From: an uncultured Verrucomicrobiales bacterium
GTDB taxonomy: Bacteria > Verrucomicrobiota > Verrucomicrobiia > Limisphaerales > UBA1100
Assembly (NCBI GenBank): GCA_913048135.1
Contig: CAJWVY010000012.1
Span: 1-37,414, forward strand
Direction of reading: 5' to 3'
DNA length: 37,414 nucleotides
Part shown: positions 2,041 to 11,531 of the stretch, one piece after another
How the letters are laid out: the number at the start of each line of letters is the position of its first letter
Numbering within the stretch: the first letter of the stretch is position 1
Notes under the pieces: generated by a model
What the model saw: only the letters and a program-made list of their open reading frames with translations
What the model was told of the DNA's origin: nothing
Database searches by the model: none
Made by a program: the position numbers and the translations under genes

Positions 2041-2727
2041 ATGACCGATTCCTCCCCGTTGCTAAAGCTGGAAAATGTTTCCCGCGAATTTCCCTCCGCC
2101 GAAGGCGATCAACCGTTGCGTGTGTTGCGCGGGTTGTCACTGGAGGTGGCCCGTGGCGAATCGGTCGCGGTGGTCGGCCCCTCCGGTTGCGGCAAGAGCA
2201 CGCTGTTAAACCTGATCGGCTCGCTCGATCAACCCACCGGCGGCACACTCACCTTTGACGGCCGCGAACTTGGCGGTTTGGACGACGTCGAGCTTGCCGC
2301 CCTGCGCAATCGCGAGATGGGTTTCATCTTTCAAAGCCATCATCTCCTGCCGCAGTGCACCGTGATGGAAAACGTGCTCGTGCCCACGCTCGCGCATCGT
2401 TCCGCCACCGCCGACGATGAAGACCGGGCTCGACGCCTGCTTGAGCGTGTTGGCCTTGGCGAACGCCTCGCCCACCGGCCCGGCCAACTTTCCGGCGGAG
2501 AACGCCAACGCGCCGCGGTCGTCCGCGCCCTGATCAACGAACCGCAGCTCCTGCTCGCCGATGAACCCACCGGAGCCCTCGACGAGGCCACTGCGGACAA
2601 GCTAGGCCAACTGCTCGTGGAACTGAACGCCGAGGAAAACCTCACCCTCATCACCGTCACCCATTCCCCCGACCTCGCCGCCCGCATGGCCCGCACCGTG
2701 AAGCTTGCCGAGGGACAAATCGCCTGA
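2041..2727 (+). CDS. ABC transporter ATP-binding protein, LolD/YbbA/MacB type
   Basis: A 228-residue ATPase with every nucleotide-binding motif intact: Walker A GPSGCGKST (46-54), Q-loop Q98, signature LSGGERQR (150-157), Walker B LLLADEPTGALDE (170-182) and switch histidine H208. The sequence between Q-loop and signature (FQSHHLLP) is typical of the LolD/MacB/FtsE group, which drives mechanotransmission by FtsX-like permeases rather than ordinary import. It starts four bases after the acyl-CoA ligase stop, and its own stop is one base before the permease start, so coupled translation is likely. It should form a homodimer on the next gene's product at the inner membrane. Confidence 0.92.
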   Translation: MTDSSPLLKLENVSREFPSAEGDQPLRVLRGLSLEVARGESVAVVGPSGCGKSTLLNLIGSLDQPTGGTLTFDGRELGGLDDVELAALRNREMGFIFQSHHLLPQCTVMENVLVPTLAHRSATADDEDRARRLLERVGLGERLAHRPGQLSGGERQRAAVVRALINEPQLLLADEPTGALDEATADKLGQLLVELNAEENLTLITVTHSPDLAARMARTVKLAEGQIA

Positions 2728-2728
2728 C

Positions 2729-5700
2729 ATGACGCGCCTTCGGCTCATCCTGGCCAGCTTGCAGCATCATGCCCGCGCCCACGTGGGCACACTGCTCGGG
2801 GCTGTAGTGGCGGCGGCCGTGTTGACCGGTTCCCTGGTAGTGGGCGATTCGGTGAAACGCACCTTGCAAAATCAAGCCGAACAACGGCTGGGCTATGTCC
2901 AGGCGGCGGTGGAATTGCACGACCGCTTTTTTCGCGATGACTTGGCCGTACGCATGGACTTGGGCGATCAATCCGCCGTGGCCCCCATTCTCCGGCTGAA
3001 CGCCGCCGGGTATCGAGAGAACGAGGACGGTCAAGTGGCCGCCCGAGCAAACAACATCCAGCTGATTGGGATTGATGATTCATTTTGGCGGTTCGCCTAC
3101 CTCAAAGCCAACCGGCCTCCTGCGCTGGAAGAAGGTGAAGCGCTGATCAATCCGCGTCTGGCCAAGCAACTCGGGCTGCAGGCCGGCGATGAATTTCGCC
3201 TGCGCATCGCCAAGCCCAGTGTGCTGCCGCGGGATGCACCGCTCTCGGTGGCGGAAGATCTCACCGTGCGACTCCGGCTCACGGTGGTCAAAGAGATCAG
3301 CCCCAATTCCGAGCTGGCCAATTTCAGCCTGCGCCCCGGTGCTACCGCGCCGTTCAACGTGTTTGTGCCGCTCTCCTGGCTGCAGGAAGAGGCGGAACTG
3401 CCTGAGCGCGCCAACGGCCTGCTGGCATGGGCTGCTCAATCCACTCCCGGAGAGTTGACGGCTCAGGCCAATGACCAACTCCAGAATGTCTGGCGGTTGG
3501 CCGATGCTGAATTGGAGTTGTTGGAAAACGAGGAGGACGACGCTATCGATCTGCGGACCGACCGCATTTTTCTCGATGCCCAAACACTCAAGGCTGCGAA
3601 CGCACCCCTCACGGCACTAACCTACATTGCCAATAATCTTCATCACGGCACCAATGCCACGCCGTACTCGATGATCACTGGGGTCAGCTCCAATTTCCTC
3701 GGGCGCATCACGCCCACCGGCGACAACATGGTCATCACCGAATGGTTGGCCAACGATCTGCAGGTGAAGTCCGGCGATCAGATCACGGTAGATTATTATG
3801 TACTCGGACTGAACCGCCAGCTGGAGGAGCGTCCGCATACCTTCACTGTCAGTGGCATACTGGATACCGAGCAACCCGGCTGGCGCGAATTAATGCCCAA
3901 CTTTCCCGGTATCGTGGATCGCGATAATTTACGCGATTGGAATCCCGGGATTGATTTCGATTCCGGTCGAGTGCGAGATCAGGATGAGGATTACTGGAAA
4001 CAACACCGCGGCACGCCCAAGGCCTTTATTGCTCTGGAAACCGGCCAGAAGCTGTGGGCCAATCGCTACGGCGAAGCGACCACCATGCGGTTTCGGTTTA
4101 ATGCGACCGACCGCACTGAGATCGAGGCGGCGTTGCGCGAGAAATTCGATCCGGCACAAATCGGGTTGCGCTTCCGCGATGTCCGCACCGAAGCGGTCGC
4201 CGGCGATTCCGCCAATGATTTTGGCGGCCTGTTCATTGGCCTGAGCTTTTTTCTCGTGCTCGCTGCGCTCATTCTCATGGGGCTCCTCTTTGTCTTCGGC
4301 GTGGAACAGCGCGCCCCGCAAATTGGCACCTTACTCGCCATTGGGTTCACCGGGAAAACTGTGCGCAATCTCCTTCTAGCCGAGGGCTTTGTGCTTGCCT
4401 TGCTCGGGGCCGGTCTGGGCGCATGGGCCGGCTTGGGGTACACACGCGTGCTTGTGGATCTGCTGAATTCCGATTGGGCCGGGGCGATTGGCAACGGCAA
4501 TATTATCTATCATGCCCAACCGCAAACGGTTGTCTACGGCGTGATCGGCGGTCTGGCCGTGGCATTGTTCACCATTTGGTTGACCGTTCGCAAACTGGCT
4601 CAGGCTCAAGCCATCACACTCATTCAGGGTGCCCCGGCGGCTACCGACACCACCCATGCCGGTCGCAAGGCACTGCTCACGGCCGCGGTGTGCGCCGTAG
4701 GCGCGATTGGGCTGGGGTTGGCCATGAAGGATGCACAGGGCCAGATGAAGGCCGGTGGATTTTTCGGCGCGGGCATGTTGATGCTCGTGAGCTGTCTGTG
4801 CGTGTGCCATGCGTGGCTGGGCAAAATGGCGACAGGCGGCGGCGCATCCTTTGCCACATTAGGCGCGATGGGTTTGCGCGGCAGCGCGCGCCGACGTGGA
4901 CGCAGTCTGGCCTGCATCGGCTTGCTGGCGTGCGGCGTGTTTCTTCTGGTGGCCGTGGGTGCGTTTCGGTTGGATCCGAATGACGGCGCACAGGAACGCT
5001 GGAGTGGCACGGGGGGCTTTGCGTTTTTCGGTCAAAGTGATGTGCCGGTGTTGTATGATTTAAACACCGAAAAGGGCCGCGAGGAAATGGCCGTGAACGG
5101 TGACGTGAGCCTCGTGCAAATGCGCGTGCGCGAAGGAGACGATGCCAGTTGCCTGAATCTTAATCAGACCCGCGAGCCACGGTTGCTTGGGGTTGACCCC
5201 CAACAGCTGATCGACAAAGAAGCTTTTACGTTTGCCAAGGGTGACGGCTGGGAGTTGTTGAACGGAACCGACGGCGGCGCTGTGCCGGCCGTGGTGGATA
5301 TGAACACCGGCATGTGGGCGCTGCACGTAAAGGTGGGCGACGAGATGGAGTACCCAAACGAAGCCGGCGGCACGTTTCCCATCCGCATTGTCGGTTTTCT
5401 CGCCAACTCCATGCTCCAAGGGGACCTGATTATCTCGGAACAAAACTTTGTGAAACAATTCCCCTCCGCCAGCGGCTACCGGGCGTTTCTGATTGATGCG
5501 GAGGATCCTCAGGCTACGGAAGAAGAGTTGAGTTTTGCGCTGGAAGATTACGGACTGGAACTGACCCCGGCCACGCGGCGGCTGGCGGAATTCAGTCAGG
5601 TGCAAAACACGTACCTCGATATTTTCCAAGCCCTGGGCGGATTGGCATTGCTGCTGGGCAGTGTTGGCCTCGGCGTGGTGGTGCTGCGTAATGTGCTGGA

Positions 5701-5989
5701 GCGCCGTGGGGAATTGGCACTGCTGCAGGCGGTGGGTTTTCGGAAAGGATCGCTGCACTGGCTCGTGCTAGCCGAACATGGCGGCCTGCTGGCGCTGGGA
5801 TTGATCGGCGGCGTGGCGAGTGCCCTGCTGGCCGTGGCGCCGTCCCTGACCGGCCCCGGACAAGGTCTACCGCTGGGTCTGCTGAAATGGATCATTTGCG
5901 GCATCCTAGTGAGCGGTCTCTTTTGGACATGGCTAGCGTCCGTGGTGGCCTTGCGCGGCCGCTTATTAACGGCGCTGCGAAGTGAGTAG
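2729..5989 (+). CDS. Large FtsX-family ABC permease (about ten helices, YbbP-like layout)
   Basis: A 1086-residue membrane protein. There is one N-terminal helix (18-40) followed by GDSVKRTL, a long periplasmic region, three helices (about 494-624, typical FtsX block containing GVEQRAPQIGTLLAIGF), two more (644-694), one at 724-745, a second extracytoplasmic region, and a final three-helix FtsX block (960-1077, with RRGELALLQAVGF). This 1+3+3+3 layout matches the duplicated YbbP type rather than the four-helix MacB/LolC type. It is longer than E. coli YbbP (about 800 residues) because of bigger periplasmic parts. ATG 2729 is preferred over a TTG at 2705, which would overlap the ATPase gene. 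Role: probable extraction or export of a hydrophobic molecule; substrate unknown. Confidence 0.88.
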   Translation: MTRLRLILASLQHHARAHVGTLLGAVVAAAVLTGSLVVGDSVKRTLQNQAEQRLGYVQAAVELHDRFFRDDLAVRMDLGDQSAVAPILRLNAAGYRENEDGQVAARANNIQLIGIDDSFWRFAYLKANRPPALEEGEALINPRLAKQLGLQAGDEFRLRIAKPSVLPRDAPLSVAEDLTVRLRLTVVKEISPNSELANFSLRPGATAPFNVFVPLSWLQEEAELPERANGLLAWAAQSTPGELTAQANDQLQNVWRLADAELELLENEEDDAIDLRTDRIFLDAQTLKAANAPLTALTYIANNLHHGTNATPYSMITGVSSNFLGRITPTGDNMVITEWLANDLQVKSGDQITVDYYVLGLNRQLEERPHTFTVSGILDTEQPGWRELMPNFPGIVDRDNLRDWNPGIDFDSGRVRDQDEDYWKQHRGTPKAFIALETGQKLWANRYGEATTMRFRFNATDRTEIEAALREKFDPAQIGLRFRDVRTEAVAGDSANDFGGLFIGLSFFLVLAALILMGLLFVFGVEQRAPQIGTLLAIGFTGKTVRNLLLAEGFVLALLGAGLGAWAGLGYTRVLVDLLNSDWAGAIGNGNIIYHAQPQTVVYGVIGGLAVALFTIWLTVRKLAQAQAITLIQGAPAATDTTHAGRKALLTAAVCAVGAIGLGLAMKDAQGQMKAGGFFGAGMLMLVSCLCVCHAWLGKMATGGGASFATLGAMGLRGSARRRGRSLACIGLLACGVFLLVAVGAFRLDPNDGAQERWSGTGGFAFFGQSDVPVLYDLNTEKGREEMAVNGDVSLVQMRVREGDDASCLNLNQTREPRLLGVDPQQLIDKEAFTFAKGDGWELLNGTDGGAVPAVVDMNTGMWALHVKVGDEMEYPNEAGGTFPIRIVGFLANSMLQGDLIISEQNFVKQFPSASGYRAFLIDAEDPQATEEELSFALEDYGLELTPATRRLAEFSQVQNTYLDIFQALGGLALLLGSVGLGVVVLRNVLERRGELALLQAVGFRKGSLHWLVLAEHGGLLALGLIGGVASALLAVAPSLTGPGQGLPLGLLKWIICGILVSGLFWTWLASVVALRGRLLTALRSE

Positions 5990-6191
5990 CTTTTTGTTTT
6001 GTCGGTTCACTTCGAGGCAGGTTTAATCCACGAAAGTAATTCATTTAATGAAAAGACGTACCTTCCCTTTCATTCTGACCCCCAACCTGCCGTTGGGTGT
6101 TACGGCTCGGGCGAAGAACAACGGCACTTTAGCACGGAACCTGACTGACTTGGTGGTCGCCGCTTTCGAACACGTGAAAAAAACAACTGAC

Positions 6192-6845
6192 GTGACTCGC
6201 AATGTCGTTTTCATTTTGCCGCTGTTGCTGGCCGGAGCCGCCTGTGTAACGCCACCCACGCCGGCCGTGGATGCGTCAACGCTGTTTCAGGAATCATTTG
6301 ATCAACGGCAAACCTTGCCGACGGCCTTTACCCCTGTGAATGGCAGGGCCACCGTGGTGGCCGCTGAAGGCGGGCGACATCTCGAGCTTCCCGCCACGCC
6401 CAAATCGGAGCATGGCGTACTGTTTGGCCCGGCCATGGCGGAGGGCTTCCGGGTCGGTGCCCGTTTCCGTGGTGCTGCCGGAGAACAGGACGAGACCACC
6501 TTCGCTGTCGGACTCAGTGGCCTGGACGGGTATCGGTTGCGGGTGAATCCGGAACGGCAAAAACTGGAGCTGAGCCGAGACACCGCAGTAGTGCAATCAG
6601 TGCCGTTTCAATCCGCACTCGGCCAATGGACCCATCTGCGATTGCAGGTGCGCGCCCTGCCGGGTTTACAATGGGCCGTGCAGGGAAAGGCTTGGGACGA
6701 ATCCCAACAGGAACCAGCGGCATGGATGCTGGAATGGACGGATACCGCCAAGCCAGAGCTAGGCCAAGCTGCCGTTTGGGGCACACCCTTAGGTGGAGAG
6801 CCGGTCGCGGTGGATGATATTAGACTGTGGCTGATTGAGCCGTAG
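6192..6845 (+). CDS. Exported LamG/concanavalin-like protein, possible lipoprotein
   Basis: From GTG 6192 the product is 217 residues and begins with a short basic tip, a hydrophobic stretch (VVFILPLLLAGAA) and a cysteine, a weak lipobox that still fits the general lipoprotein pattern. The mature part starts LFQESFDQ and alternates beta-strands with motifs such as GLSGLDGYRLRVNP and WTHLRLQV, as in LamG or DUF1080-like jelly-roll domains that bind sugars. The frame remains open upstream to ATG 6048, which would add 48 residues with no obvious family features; the signal peptide favours the later start, but no ribosome binding site settles it. No catalytic residues recognised. Confidence 0.65.
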   Translation: MTRNVVFILPLLLAGAACVTPPTPAVDASTLFQESFDQRQTLPTAFTPVNGRATVVAAEGGRHLELPATPKSEHGVLFGPAMAEGFRVGARFRGAAGEQDETTFAVGLSGLDGYRLRVNPERQKLELSRDTAVVQSVPFQSALGQWTHLRLQVRALPGLQWAVQGKAWDESQQEPAAWMLEWTDTAKPELGQAAVWGTPLGGEPVAVDDIRLWLIEP

Positions 6846-6858
6846 ACTGCAGGGCCGA

Positions 6859-7929
6859 CTAAAGATCGATCGGACCGTCGAGGCGTTCGCCGTCCATTTC
6901 ATAGATACCAACGAGATAGCTGTTTTCCAATACCTCGCCGACTTTTAATGTACCGAAAATGGTGACCGGCACATCCATTAGCGGTTTCACTCCCTTGTTT
7001 TTAGGCATTCGCACACTCACCCATTCGTTTATCTTCGGTACGGCGCCGTAGCAACACAAGGATTGGTCGCGTAGAATCAGCAGTTCGGTGATCAAGCCAT
7101 CTTCCACCTTTAGCGGAAGCATAAACCCTTTAAGAGCGACCTTTTGTCCGTCAAATTTTTTGATGCTCTCAGGTATCTCATTGGATTCCAAAATCTTCTT
7201 AGCCTTGGGTTCGGTAATTGGATCATCCGGCACTTCGTAGGCAAAGGAAGATAGCCGATCGAAACCCAGCAGTGAGTAATCACCAATCTTGACGGGCACG
7301 GCAAGTTTGTTGGGTTCAGCCGGCGAGGTGGGGTTGGGCACTTCAGCGGTAAATGCATCGGCAATGCCTAGCTCGGTGATCTCAGCTTGGTAAACTGGGT
7401 TCTCTGGATCCACTTCTACGCCCTGCTTTTTGAAGAGTGCTTGTTGCCCCTTGGTCATTTCCACGGTCACTTTGTCACCCGTAGCAAGGTTCTCTCTGGG
7501 AAACTGTTGTTTGGTCGACACACCATCTAGGTCAGTAAGGGTGATTGTAGTACCTTCCACTGTGTACCGACCCGAGCGCCCAAGTTCATCATGCCAATTA
7601 CCTTCGGCCATAAAGTTGATGGCAACCGGCTTGCTGCCGGGCAGCTTGGCATCGAACACGATCTTGGTGTTCGCGAGGGCGGTGGCCAGCGGGCTATCGT
7701 CCACAGGCAGCTGAAACGGCTCCTTTTCAGATTGTACTTCCGTTTCAGTGTTAACCGAAACTTGCCCAGTATTGGAATAAATTTCCTCAATGAATGGCTT
7801 AGGCTCGGCGTTTTCGCGTATTATCGCTTCACCTCGCTTCACCTTCACATTCGTTTGAGTAGACACCGGTTGACCGCAACCGATTAAACCAACTAGTGCA
7901 AAAAGGCCAATTGTCCTAAAACATTTCAT
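6859..7929 (-). CDS. DUF3299 lipoprotein, last gene of an ABC cassette
   Basis: A 356-residue predicted lipoprotein with lipobox LIGC, cysteine at 18. The middle (about residues 75-200) is a beta-rich domain of unknown family. The C-terminal ~130 residues match DUF3299: VALKGFMLPLKVEDG, then LRDQSLCCYGAVPKINEWVSVRM and the VTIFGTLKVGE strand. The family is periplasmic, of unknown biochemical role, and often lies beside FtsX-type ABC genes. The tandem cysteines in SLCCYG sit where DUF3299 proteins keep a conserved Cys and may bind metal (inference). ATG 7929 is chosen because it starts a proper signal peptide; the frame is open 21 codons further. It lies 16 bases after the His-Asp lipoprotein gene. 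Confidence 0.82.
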   Translation of the reverse strand: MKCFRTIGLFALVGLIGCGQPVSTQTNVKVKRGEAIIRENAEPKPFIEEIYSNTGQVSVNTETEVQSEKEPFQLPVDDSPLATALANTKIVFDAKLPGSKPVAINFMAEGNWHDELGRSGRYTVEGTTITLTDLDGVSTKQQFPRENLATGDKVTVEMTKGQQALFKKQGVEVDPENPVYQAEITELGIADAFTAEVPNPTSPAEPNKLAVPVKIGDYSLLGFDRLSSFAYEVPDDPITEPKAKKILESNEIPESIKKFDGQKVALKGFMLPLKVEDGLITELLILRDQSLCCYGAVPKINEWVSVRMPKNKGVKPLMDVPVTIFGTLKVGEVLENSYLVGIYEMDGERLDGPIDL

Positions 7930-7945
7930 TTGCAACACTCTAGTT

Positions 7946-8437
7946 CTACTTGGAGAATTTGAAAGTAATATTTTGGAGCTTACGATCTTCAATCTGCAGT
8001 TCCTTCAAAGTCACATCGAACTCCGGTGTATCCTTTAACCAATCGATTTGGGCCGTGTAAAGAGAAGTGGCCTCAGTAGCAGGTGCCTCGCCATCCAATT
8101 GTGTAGGGCTGAATATAAAGGCTTTTTCCTCTTCACCAATCTTGGCTGTGGCCTCTACCTGTTCCATGAAAAACTTTAAAGGCCCTTCACTCGGATGGAA
8201 TCGCATAGCGTGCATTTGCAACCTGCCATTAAGCGGATCGACTAAGAATTCCAAATGACAAAATTCATTTTCTACATTCACCAACACTCCGCCATTAGGT
8301 GCATCATGGGAGTGGTCATGACCGCCGCCGTGGTCATGGTCATGGTCATGGTCATGGTCATGGTCATGGTCATGGTCATGGTCTTTTTGGCAGCCCAGAG
8401 ACAGTGTAATGAGTAGAGTTAAGAGGATTAATTTCAT
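7946..8437 (-). CDS. Metal-binding (His-Asp)n lipoprotein
   Basis: A 163-residue predicted lipoprotein (LSLGC, cysteine 16). Just after the anchor come nine consecutive Asp-His pairs, then GGGHDHSHD, and a compact beta domain beginning APNGGVLVNVENEFCHLEFL. The 'HGG-V-hlEl' arrangement is known from small periplasmic proteins and adaptor domains linked to metal homeostasis. Runs of histidine and aspartate normally bind Zn, Ni, Cu or Co; which metal cannot be read here. It sits one base after the permease gene and 16 before the DUF3299 gene, the position ZrgA-like zinc proteins occupy in gammaproteobacteria. I could not establish homology to ZrgA itself. The run is encoded by a near-perfect hexanucleotide repeat. 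Confidence 0.85.
   Translation of the reverse strand: MKLILLTLLITLSLGCQKDHDHDHDHDHDHDHDHDHGGGHDHSHDAPNGGVLVNVENEFCHLEFLVDPLNGRLQMHAMRFHPSEGPLKFFMEQVEATAKIGEEEKAFIFSPTQLDGEAPATEATSLYTAQIDWLKDTPEFDVTLKELQIEDRKLQNITFKFSK
8331..8383. repeat. TGGTCA hexanucleotide tandem repeat, about 8.8 units
   Basis: Fifty-three bases of uninterrupted TGGTCA on the + strand, read as GAC-CAT (Asp-His) on the - strand inside the lipoprotein gene. Every unit uses the same codons, pointing to recent expansion by replication slippage. A unit of six keeps frame, so copy-number changes would alter only the length of the His-Asp run. Confidence 0.97.
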
Positions 8438-8438
8438 G

Positions 8439-9674
8439 TTAACTTTGCGGGGTAAGATTCTTTGCTACATCCGTACCATAAGCTTTGGCTGCGGGAATAA
8501 TACCGACTAGGGCACCAAAGGCAACCATTACAACAGGGACGATTAGCATTACTTTATGCGGCTCCATAGGATGCAAAGATACTCCAATTTCATTTCGCAG
8601 AGTGCCCTCGGCAGCCAATAGGATGATGGCGTAAACGGCAAATCCAATTAGAACCCCCAACGCCGCGATAGTGGCACTTTCCAGAACGATCACGCTGAAT
8701 ATGGTTGAACGCCTAGCACCGAGCGCACGAAGAATAGCAAATTCACGACGTCTTTCATTCATGGTGTTGTAGATACTGGCCAACACCCCTGCTGCTGCCA
8801 CCACCGCGACCAAATACGCTACCCACCGCAAAACCGATTCTGCCCACGCAAACTGGTCGAAAAGACGCGCCACAACATCTTCATTGGATTTCACAAATGT
8901 CAGGTGATCGGTTCCCTTATTGTAAATGCTATCCAAACTATTCATTCCGAATGCACGCGCGGTAGTATTATCGCTCATCTGAATCAGCACCGCACTCACA
9001 TCACCAGCAAAGCGAGGGTCATGACCATCCATCTGCTGGAGGCCTTCAATGGGAATCCAAATCACGCGGTCAGCCGGTGTTCCGGAAGGCTTTAGAATCC
9101 CGGTAACCGAATAAATATCCTTGTGAGGCATCTGCCCCTCGGTGAAATTTAGCCCATGGTAAGGTTGAAACGTATCATTAATCCCAAGCCCCAGCTGGGC
9201 TGCAACTGTGTGACCAATAACAGCTTCCTTGTTCCATTGGGTTGCATTCTGAATAAACTTTTCTCCGGCGGCTAATTCGTATTTTTGGCCTGGCGAATGT
9301 TCAACTTCGAATAGCTCGAGAGTTGTACCTACGATTCGATATCCTTTTAAATTATCACCCACAGCTATCGGCACAGCACGGTTGTAAAAGCGCTTATATT
9401 TTTCACGAAAAAGTCGGTAATCAAATGCTTTCACCAAGCCTGGGGAAGAATCCATGTGGAACAGGCTATTAAGCACAAGTTGCAACTGAGAACCACGAGG
9501 GCCGAGAATGGAATCAAACCCGCCGGTTACATTCTTAAATGCACGTTGGGTTTGAAAGTTTACAACCCAAACCGACATTAAAAGTCCGCAACCCAAGCCA
9601 ATACTCACCGCCGTGATTCCAGTGGAGAGAGCGTGATGTCGAAGGCTGTTCCGAATAATCATCCAGATCGTCAT
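8439..9674 (-). CDS. ABC transporter permease, FtsX/MacB family
   Basis: A 411-residue protein with the four-helix FtsX/MacB topology: one N-terminal helix (about 15-35), a periplasmic MacB_PCD-like domain (40-275), then three helices near 285-310, 330-360 and 380-400. The NERRREFAILRALGARR segment after the second helix is the conserved coupling-helix region that contacts the ATPase. It overlaps the upstream ATPase gene by four bases (ATGA) and is followed after one base by the His-Asp lipoprotein, so the cassette is translated as a unit. Such permeases transmit force to a periplasmic partner instead of forming a channel; here that partner could be either lipoprotein (inference). Confidence 0.9.
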   Translation of the reverse strand: MTIWMIIRNSLRHHALSTGITAVSIGLGCGLLMSVWVVNFQTQRAFKNVTGGFDSILGPRGSQLQLVLNSLFHMDSSPGLVKAFDYRLFREKYKRFYNRAVPIAVGDNLKGYRIVGTTLELFEVEHSPGQKYELAAGEKFIQNATQWNKEAVIGHTVAAQLGLGINDTFQPYHGLNFTEGQMPHKDIYSVTGILKPSGTPADRVIWIPIEGLQQMDGHDPRFAGDVSAVLIQMSDNTTARAFGMNSLDSIYNKGTDHLTFVKSNEDVVARLFDQFAWAESVLRWVAYLVAVVAAAGVLASIYNTMNERRREFAILRALGARRSTIFSVIVLESATIAALGVLIGFAVYAIILLAAEGTLRNEIGVSLHPMEPHKVMLIVPVVMVAFGALVGIIPAAKAYGTDVAKNLTPQS

Positions 9675-10351
9675 TTGGCTACCTCCTTTGCGGCTTTATT
9701 GATCTCCGCCAAATCATGGCAGTCTTCAAACTGATCAAGAACACCCTGATCATGGCTCACTAAAAGTAAGGCCGCGGTATTTTCCCGACAAACCTCGCGA
9801 ATTAACTGCAGGGCTTCTTGGGCATTTTGAGGATCAAGATTTCCCGTGGGCTCATCAGCCAAAACCAGATTGGGCCGGTTAGCCAAGGCACGTGCCACCG
9901 CCACCCGTTGCTGTTGACCTACTGAAAGTTCCCCGGGGCGATAATCCATCCGATCAGCCAAGCCAACACGATTCAGTAGTGCGGTTGCCTGCTGGGTATT
10001 GGCTGGGCCGGAAAAGCTCATGCCCAAAAGCACATTCTCCAGGCAAGTGTACCCCTGCAAAAGGTTGAAGGTTTGGAAAATGTAACCGATGTGTTGGGCG
10101 CGTAGTTCATCGCGTTGGCTTTCGCTGGCAATAGCAATGTTTTGGCCAGCCAGTTCAATGTCACCCGCGTCAGGCCGCAGAATACCGGCGATGCAATTTA
10201 GAAAAGTGGTTTTACCTGTGCCACTGGCACCACGTAAAGCAAGCTGTTGCCCCGCTTCGAGTGAAAATTCCGGCACCTCCAGCACGGTATGCCTAACTCC
10301 CTCAGGGGCTTTATAGCTTTTGATGAGCTGACGGATTTTCAGCAGCGACAC
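9671..10351 (-). CDS. ABC transporter ATP-binding protein, first gene of the metal-lipoprotein cassette
   Basis: A 226-residue ATPase with Walker A GASGTGKT (41-48), Q-loop FQTFNLLQ (92-99), Walker B LVLADEPTGNLD (162-173) and switch histidine H200. The signature is LSVGQQQR (142-149), with Val in place of the first Gly of the usual LSGGQ; this variant occurs in DevA/MacB-like ATPases and should still work. The start is GTG at 10351 with no strong ribosome binding site. It opens a four-gene minus-strand operon. The 151 bases to the divergent gap gene must hold its promoter, but I found no convincing -35/-10 pair or Zur-like palindrome on this strand. Confidence 0.92.
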   Translation of the reverse strand: MSLLKIRQLIKSYKAPEGVRHTVLEVPEFSLEAGQQLALRGASGTGKTTFLNCIAGILRPDAGDIELAGQNIAIASESQRDELRAQHIGYIFQTFNLLQGYTCLENVLLGMSFSGPANTQQATALLNRVGLADRMDYRPGELSVGQQQRVAVARALANRPNLVLADEPTGNLDPQNAQEALQLIREVCRENTAALLLVSHDQGVLDQFEDCHDLAEINKAAKEVAK

Positions 10352-10442
10352 GGCTAGAGGTTAACGTGGTTGGCTTTTGGTGTCCATGCCGGTTTGGTGC
10401 AGTTTGCCGTGAGTTTTTAAACAAAAAGCCCTGTCTTTGACG

Positions 10443-10470
10443 TTGACGCCTCGCTGCCCATCGCTATGAT
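10443..10470 (+). promoter_or_regulatory. Sigma70-type promoter of gap
   Basis: TTGACG at 10443-10448 and TATGAT at 10465-10470 are 16 bases apart and lie 32 bases before the gap start codon. Each hexamer differs from consensus by one base. It is the clearest promoter in the window and fits a strongly expressed glycolytic gene. Confidence 0.6.
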
Positions 10471-10490
10471 GCGCGCCCCCAACTTTTTAG

Positions 10491-11531
<1,041 letters not shown>

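Follow-up and report, generated by a model that had tools for sequence, protein, structure and literature searches.

The stretch of DNA analysed here (the window) comprises 37,414 nt of contig CAJWVY010000012.1 in assembly GCA_913048135.1, from an uncultured Verrucomicrobiales bacterium placed by GTDB in Verrucomicrobiota; Verrucomicrobiia; Limisphaerales; UBA1100. Its minus strand carries a four-gene operon at 6859-10351, which encodes an ATP-binding cassette (ABC) ATPase, a MacB/FtsX-type permease, a histidine lipoprotein (HisLP), and a lipoprotein with a DUF3299 domain. All four genes were found where an earlier note on this DNA had placed them and with the spacing it had described, namely a 4-base overlap between the ATPase and permease genes, a 1-base gap between the permease and HisLP genes, and a 16-base gap between the HisLP and DUF3299 genes. 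The last distance follows from the ATG at 7929, and an alternative in-frame TTG at 7992 would overlap HisLP. As judged from sequence, three of the proteins have homologues in the Zrg system of Vibrio and Pseudomonas (ZrgC for the ATPase, ZrgB for the permease, and ZrgE for the DUF3299 lipoprotein), and the place of ZrgA is taken by HisLP, an unrelated candidate metal-binder that is non-homologous to ZrgA within the reach of the tools used. The features of the operon are listed below (aa, amino acids; OB, oligonucleotide/oligosaccharide-binding; pLDDT, predicted local distance difference test).

9671-10351, minus strand: ABC ATPase in the ZrgC position, 226 aa, GTG start (PF00005, E 6e-34)
8439-9674, minus strand: MacB/FtsX-type permease, ZrgB-like, 411 aa, MacB_PCD and FtsX domains (Pfam)
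7946-8437, minus strand: HisLP, 163 aa, lipobox Cys16 (alignments, AlphaFold2)
8330-8383, minus strand: (DH)9 tract in HisLP, a six-base tandem repeat that differs between close relatives
6859-7929, minus strand: DUF3299 lipoprotein, ZrgE-like, 356 aa, lipobox Cys18 (PF11736, E 9.6e-7)
6880-7302, minus strand: DUF3299/OB-fold domain of this lipoprotein, invariant CCxG at about 7045-7056 (alignments, AlphaFold2)
7363-7689, minus strand: N-terminal beta domain of the same lipoprotein, pLDDT about 80 (AlphaFold2), close relatives only
10352-10502, no strand: intergenic region shared with a divergent GAPDH gene, with a short promoter-like conserved segment beside the start codon

The window permease aligned with Phaeobacter ZrgB at 30% identity over 431 aa (BLAST E 1e-44) and was placed in a well supported clade of its own, at about 26-30% identity to ZrgB. 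The permeases of MacAB-TolC and LolCDE (type VII ABC systems working by mechanotransmission) share its architecture, MacB_PCD plus FtsX, but the window permease matched both far more weakly than ZrgB (E 8e-9 for LolE and 6e-6 for MacB), and the window proteins scored under the curated LolC and LolD cut-offs: the lolCE model gave 57.5 bits on the permease against a cut-off of 362, and LolD, the best NCBIfam model for the ATPase, gave 192.7 bits against 307.75. When the window permease and canonical ZrgB were used as plasmid queries, 119 and 118 records were retrieved, respectively, forming a nearly identical set with the main genera shared. No MacA-type adaptor domain was detected by Pfam in the four operon proteins, the rest of the genome not having been searched for one.

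The DUF3299 lipoprotein, which is present in one copy in the source genome, matched PDB entry 4hsp (PA4066, the Pseudomonas ZrgE) by sequence (E 6.7e-5), and the same entry was the top fold match of its AlphaFold2 model (E 1.3e-7). Comparison with ZrgE of canonical operons using hhalign gave a probability of 97% (E 2e-11). A CCxG motif was invariant in the DUF3299 domain alignments of window-type relatives, whereas ZrgE has ACIH at that place (as part of an ACIHxPPPP motif) and phosphatase-linked relatives, described below, have CPFC. The N-terminal beta domain was missing in most relatives. A faint structural echo of NlpE was seen in this domain, too weak for a claim, and an NlpE-like architecture for the lipoprotein (E 3e-3, template modelling score about 0.27) was rejected on the same ground. 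The comparison with Zrg drawn in the earlier note proved correct, zrgE being annotated as a DUF3299 gene (PMC9817125) and Vibrio ZrgB being MacB-like (PMC9820375).

The other half of that comparison, the replacement of ZrgA by a different small metal-binder candidate, was borne out by the fold model and by profile comparison. While the DUF3299 profile was recovered at the significance listed above, DUF2796/ZrgA was not: on HisLP, the Pfam ZrgA model (PF10986) scored 15.2 bits against a cut-off of 27.4 and the NCBIfam ZrgA model 21.6 bits against 185, both over the His tract only, and hhalign returned a probability of 1% with a ZrgA alignment of two sequences. Since the weak matches span only the His tract, homology of HisLP to ZrgA was rejected. 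The AlphaFold2 model of HisLP has a confident all-beta core at residues 49-161 (pLDDT mostly >90), and ZrgA is a non-canonical ferredoxin-like alpha/beta protein (PMC8561739). No counterpart of HisLP was found in Pfam, NCBIfam, or PDB; a Foldseek search of PDB with the model gave no significant fold match (best E 0.023), a sequence search of solved structures returned no relative, and a plasmid search with the core of a HisLP relative gave no match. HisLP resembles ZrgA as a His-bearing periplasmic partner.

The (DH)9 tract, which had been the headline feature in the earlier note, consists of exactly nine Asp-His pairs (HisLP residues 19-36) and is not conserved: five DH units are present in the closest relative (94% identity) and zero to two in most others. 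The tract is a species-level repeat, and the conserved feature of HisLP lies elsewhere. Among 47 aligned relatives, the lipobox Cys16, H42, H44, G49, G50, and E63 were invariant, and H81, L134, and F159 nearly so. These positions bear on the reading in which the operon has no metal function at all, being a generic MacB-type exporter of peptides or lipids with the His-Asp tract as a neutral microsatellite. The variation in tract length between species and the many substrates of MacB-type pumps are in keeping with it, but the HxH motif, E63, and H81 are conserved even where the tract is lacking, the DUF3299 protein corresponds to ZrgE, and loci of relatives adjoin metal genes, so that this reading is considered very improbable.

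Conservation of the gene set was examined by gene neighbourhood and by genome co-occurrence. A DUF3299 scan of genomes with a narrow alignment set gave 80 named loci (designated L plus a number), all apparently from Verrucomicrobiota, and differing record titles were taken as mislabelled metagenome bins. Around 64 DUF3299 loci with at least 3 kb of upstream sequence, the permease was found in 41, HisLP in 43, and both in 31. The order ATPase-permease-HisLP-DUF3299 was also seen in families of the phylum farther removed from the window's (L210, L213, L214), and because it recurs in many families it is beyond chance. Among 236 genomes of the window's class, DUF3299 was present in 50, the permease in 44, and HisLP in 31; the permease and DUF3299 each accompanied HisLP in 30 of its 31 genomes, and 43 of the 44 permease genomes contained DUF3299 (Fisher values for this sample ignore kinship). 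HisLP was adjacent to the permease in 19 of 30 genomes, and the remaining 11 carried the permease at another place. The outcome that the earlier note had named as refuting its proposal, lipoproteins mostly found away from the ABC genes, was thus not observed. All 18 checked genomes with HisLP-DUF3299 away from the ABC genes still held a permease of the family (48-79% identity). In one congener, equated with the genome of L097 via identical contig coordinates, a Fur-HisLP-DUF3299-MerC cluster occupies one place and the ABC genes with DUF3299 another. The earlier proposal that the four genes act together is upheld by the conserved order and the co-occurrence.

Genes for metal handling or uptake were found beside the operon or its parts in several relatives. 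A ZnuA-type binding protein (PF01297, E 2.6e-65) is encoded just upstream of the ABC pair in L214, and a CobW gene lies directly downstream of HisLP in L218. In two loci of the window's genus, HisLP and DUF3299 are encoded away from the ABC pair, together with Fur and MerC (L061 6627-8727, in the order Fur-HisLP-DUF3299-MerC; L062 1389-3509, with the same parts present), and MerC adjoins DUF3299 in L086. One TonB-dependent receptor family is found beside the operon in three families (L083 8302-10512, L089 1925-4354, and L086 10119-12362). These are separate contexts, all with metal or uptake functions. Near the TonB receptor loci, small proteins (about 110-124 aa) that are secreted and belong to no Pfam family were also seen, and similar Cys/His proteins in L213 and L214.

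Because the set is conserved and relatives carry metal genes beside it, a role in handling zinc or a similar metal is likely, with zinc suggested by homology as the likeliest metal. The four genes would probably form an envelope system of the Zrg type that handles a transition metal, zinc being the best candidate. Both lipoproteins would lie in the periplasm, where HisLP may capture or buffer metal via its N-terminal His residues and beta-sandwich core. The DUF3299 lipoprotein, with its OB-fold and Cys-containing CCxG motif, may couple the metal to the permease at its large periplasmic domain. ATP hydrolysis at the ATPase would move this domain and so pass the metal out of the periplasm, probably in the inward direction. 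The claim of a new zinc or other metal system was therefore retained in part: the core is a Zrg variant rather than wholly new, the exchange of ZrgA stands, and zinc specifically is a candidate suggested by homology.

Published views of the Zrg core conflict, with zinc import described in Vibrio and metallophore export in Pseudomonas. Expression of the zrg operon in Vibrio rises strongly when zinc is limiting (PMC9817125), and zrgA is required for growth without zinc (PMC9820375). Pseudomonas PA4063-PA4066 have been assigned to cobalt-pyochelin export, PA4064-PA4065 being modelled as a MacB-type exporter, with PA4065 mutants over-accumulating cobalt in a pyochelin-dependent manner (PMC11481552). 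By analogy, the window ABC pair, whose permease carries the MacB periplasmic domain, could push a metal complex or metallophore outward, with the lipoproteins supplying or sensing periplasmic metal. This is regarded as rather unlikely, given that the Vibrio genetics favour zinc acquisition (PMC9820375, PMC9817125), that the operon has neither metallophore genes nor an adaptor gene, and that a TonB receptor, an uptake component, stands beside it in three families, although a metallophore cycle would fit the receptor too.

The Pseudomonas assignment weighs against a zinc-acquiring Zrg-type system, as do several observations on the window and its relatives. Metal-gene neighbours were found in a minority of the examined loci, and some relatives (L096, L118, L150, L155) have no recognisable HisLP between the permease and DUF3299; HisLP is less essential than the core because these relatives hold the ABC pair and DUF3299 without it. 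The window scan for a Zur-like palindrome with up to three mismatches, which the earlier note had proposed for 10352-10502, found none, although the operator of this phylum may differ. No regulator gene lies beside the window operon, and the conserved segment upstream looks constitutive; the inverted repeats in this region are short and scattered, and promoter-like sites occur at chance level. Finally, a ZnuA-type ABC system is also encoded in the source genome (PF01297 protein on contig C15), so the window operon is not the sole candidate for metal uptake. ZnuABC and the operon probably act on the same metal and each have a His-rich component in the periplasm, but the operon contains neither a cluster A-I binding protein (PF01297) nor an ABC-3 permease.

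Compared with ZrgABCDE of V. cholerae and V. parahaemolyticus and with PA4063-PA4066 of P. aeruginosa, the window operon shares a homologous ATPase, a MacB-like permease, and DUF3299 in one operon, together with a His-rich periplasmic metal-binder candidate. It differs in having the all-beta HisLP instead of the ferredoxin-like ZrgA (DUF2796), in its distinct permease clade, and in the Zur-like site, not found in the window; ZrgD (DUF2607 small membrane protein) is not among its genes and is missing from some Vibrionaceae as well (PMC9817125). The canonical Phaeobacter operon has the order Fur, DUF2796 (ZrgA), ATPase, permease, DUF3299. Because ZrgA is absent despite the common core, the operon was classed as a variant of Zrg rather than a true Zrg system. 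A complete canonical operon, Fur-ZIP-ZrgA-ATPase-permease-2xDUF3299-CobW, was observed in the window's own class (L088 2737-9004).

A third form of the core was found on plasmids, downstream of a PhoA-type alkaline phosphatase gene (PF00245).

L176 3776-6083: PhoA-linked cassette, Deinococcus radiodurans pMP1
L177 3806-6089: PhoA-linked cassette, Allomeiothermus pMESIL01
L178 3728-6149: PhoA-linked cassette, Paracoccus methylovorus p2

Like the window operon, these cassettes encode a ZrgB-like permease, an ATPase, and a small secreted protein that resembles DUF3299, but they have neither ZrgA nor HisLP. The secreted protein carries CPFC; Pfam did not recognise it, and hhalign matched it to DUF3299 at 94%. 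The proximity of PhoA, a zinc enzyme, to a Zrg-type core is suggestive. It is consistent with an envelope-only system, in which metal would be loaded on or extracted from the lipoproteins and given to periplasmic or outer-membrane metalloproteins, none crossing the membrane. The resemblance of the permease and ATPase to LolCDE-type force transmitters points the same way, as does the Q or G that follows the lipid-bearing Cys in both window lipoproteins. By an established rule in E. coli, Q or G at this position sends a lipoprotein to the outer membrane, and this phylum may follow it. Such a system is nevertheless thought improbable for the window, where the operon includes no substrate enzyme, and it fits poorly with the growth defect of the Vibrio zrgA mutant under zinc limitation.

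The replacement of ZrgA by an unrelated His-bearing lipoprotein suggests that the protein which binds metal for the transport core can be exchanged. It is tentatively proposed that the conserved machine consists of the ABC pair and the OB-fold DUF3299 protein, and that it may transfer metals in general by mechanical force instead of working as an importer of the classical kind. The metal-binder would be exchangeable: Proteobacteria would use ZrgA, Verrucomicrobiota the beta-sandwich HisLP, which could represent a new class of metal carriers in the periplasm, and the phosphatase-linked form of Deinococcus and Paracoccus would use neither. Nothing was found in the open-access literature on a Verrucomicrobiota form of the Zrg system. 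There is dispute over how Zrg-type systems work and in which direction, with zinc acquisition proposed in Vibrio and cobalt-pyochelin export in Pseudomonas. A natural version with another metal-binder tells the kept parts (ABC pair, DUF3299) from the replaceable ones. HisLP stands for a protein family yet to be characterised, in which the residues to mutate are evident, and the operon points to metal handling in Verrucomicrobiota.

The upstream neighbour of the operon, the divergent GAPDH gene, is kept in the window's family. Matches to defence-system models were limited to generic ATPase and permease hits, and a defence assignment was rejected. At 2041-5989, the window encodes a second ATPase and a 1094-aa MacB/FtsX permease that is not close kin of the operon permease. 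The gene 3' of the operon (6048-6845), whose protein had no Pfam match, is convergent, conserved, and unrelated to it, and is syntenic in L096 and L193.

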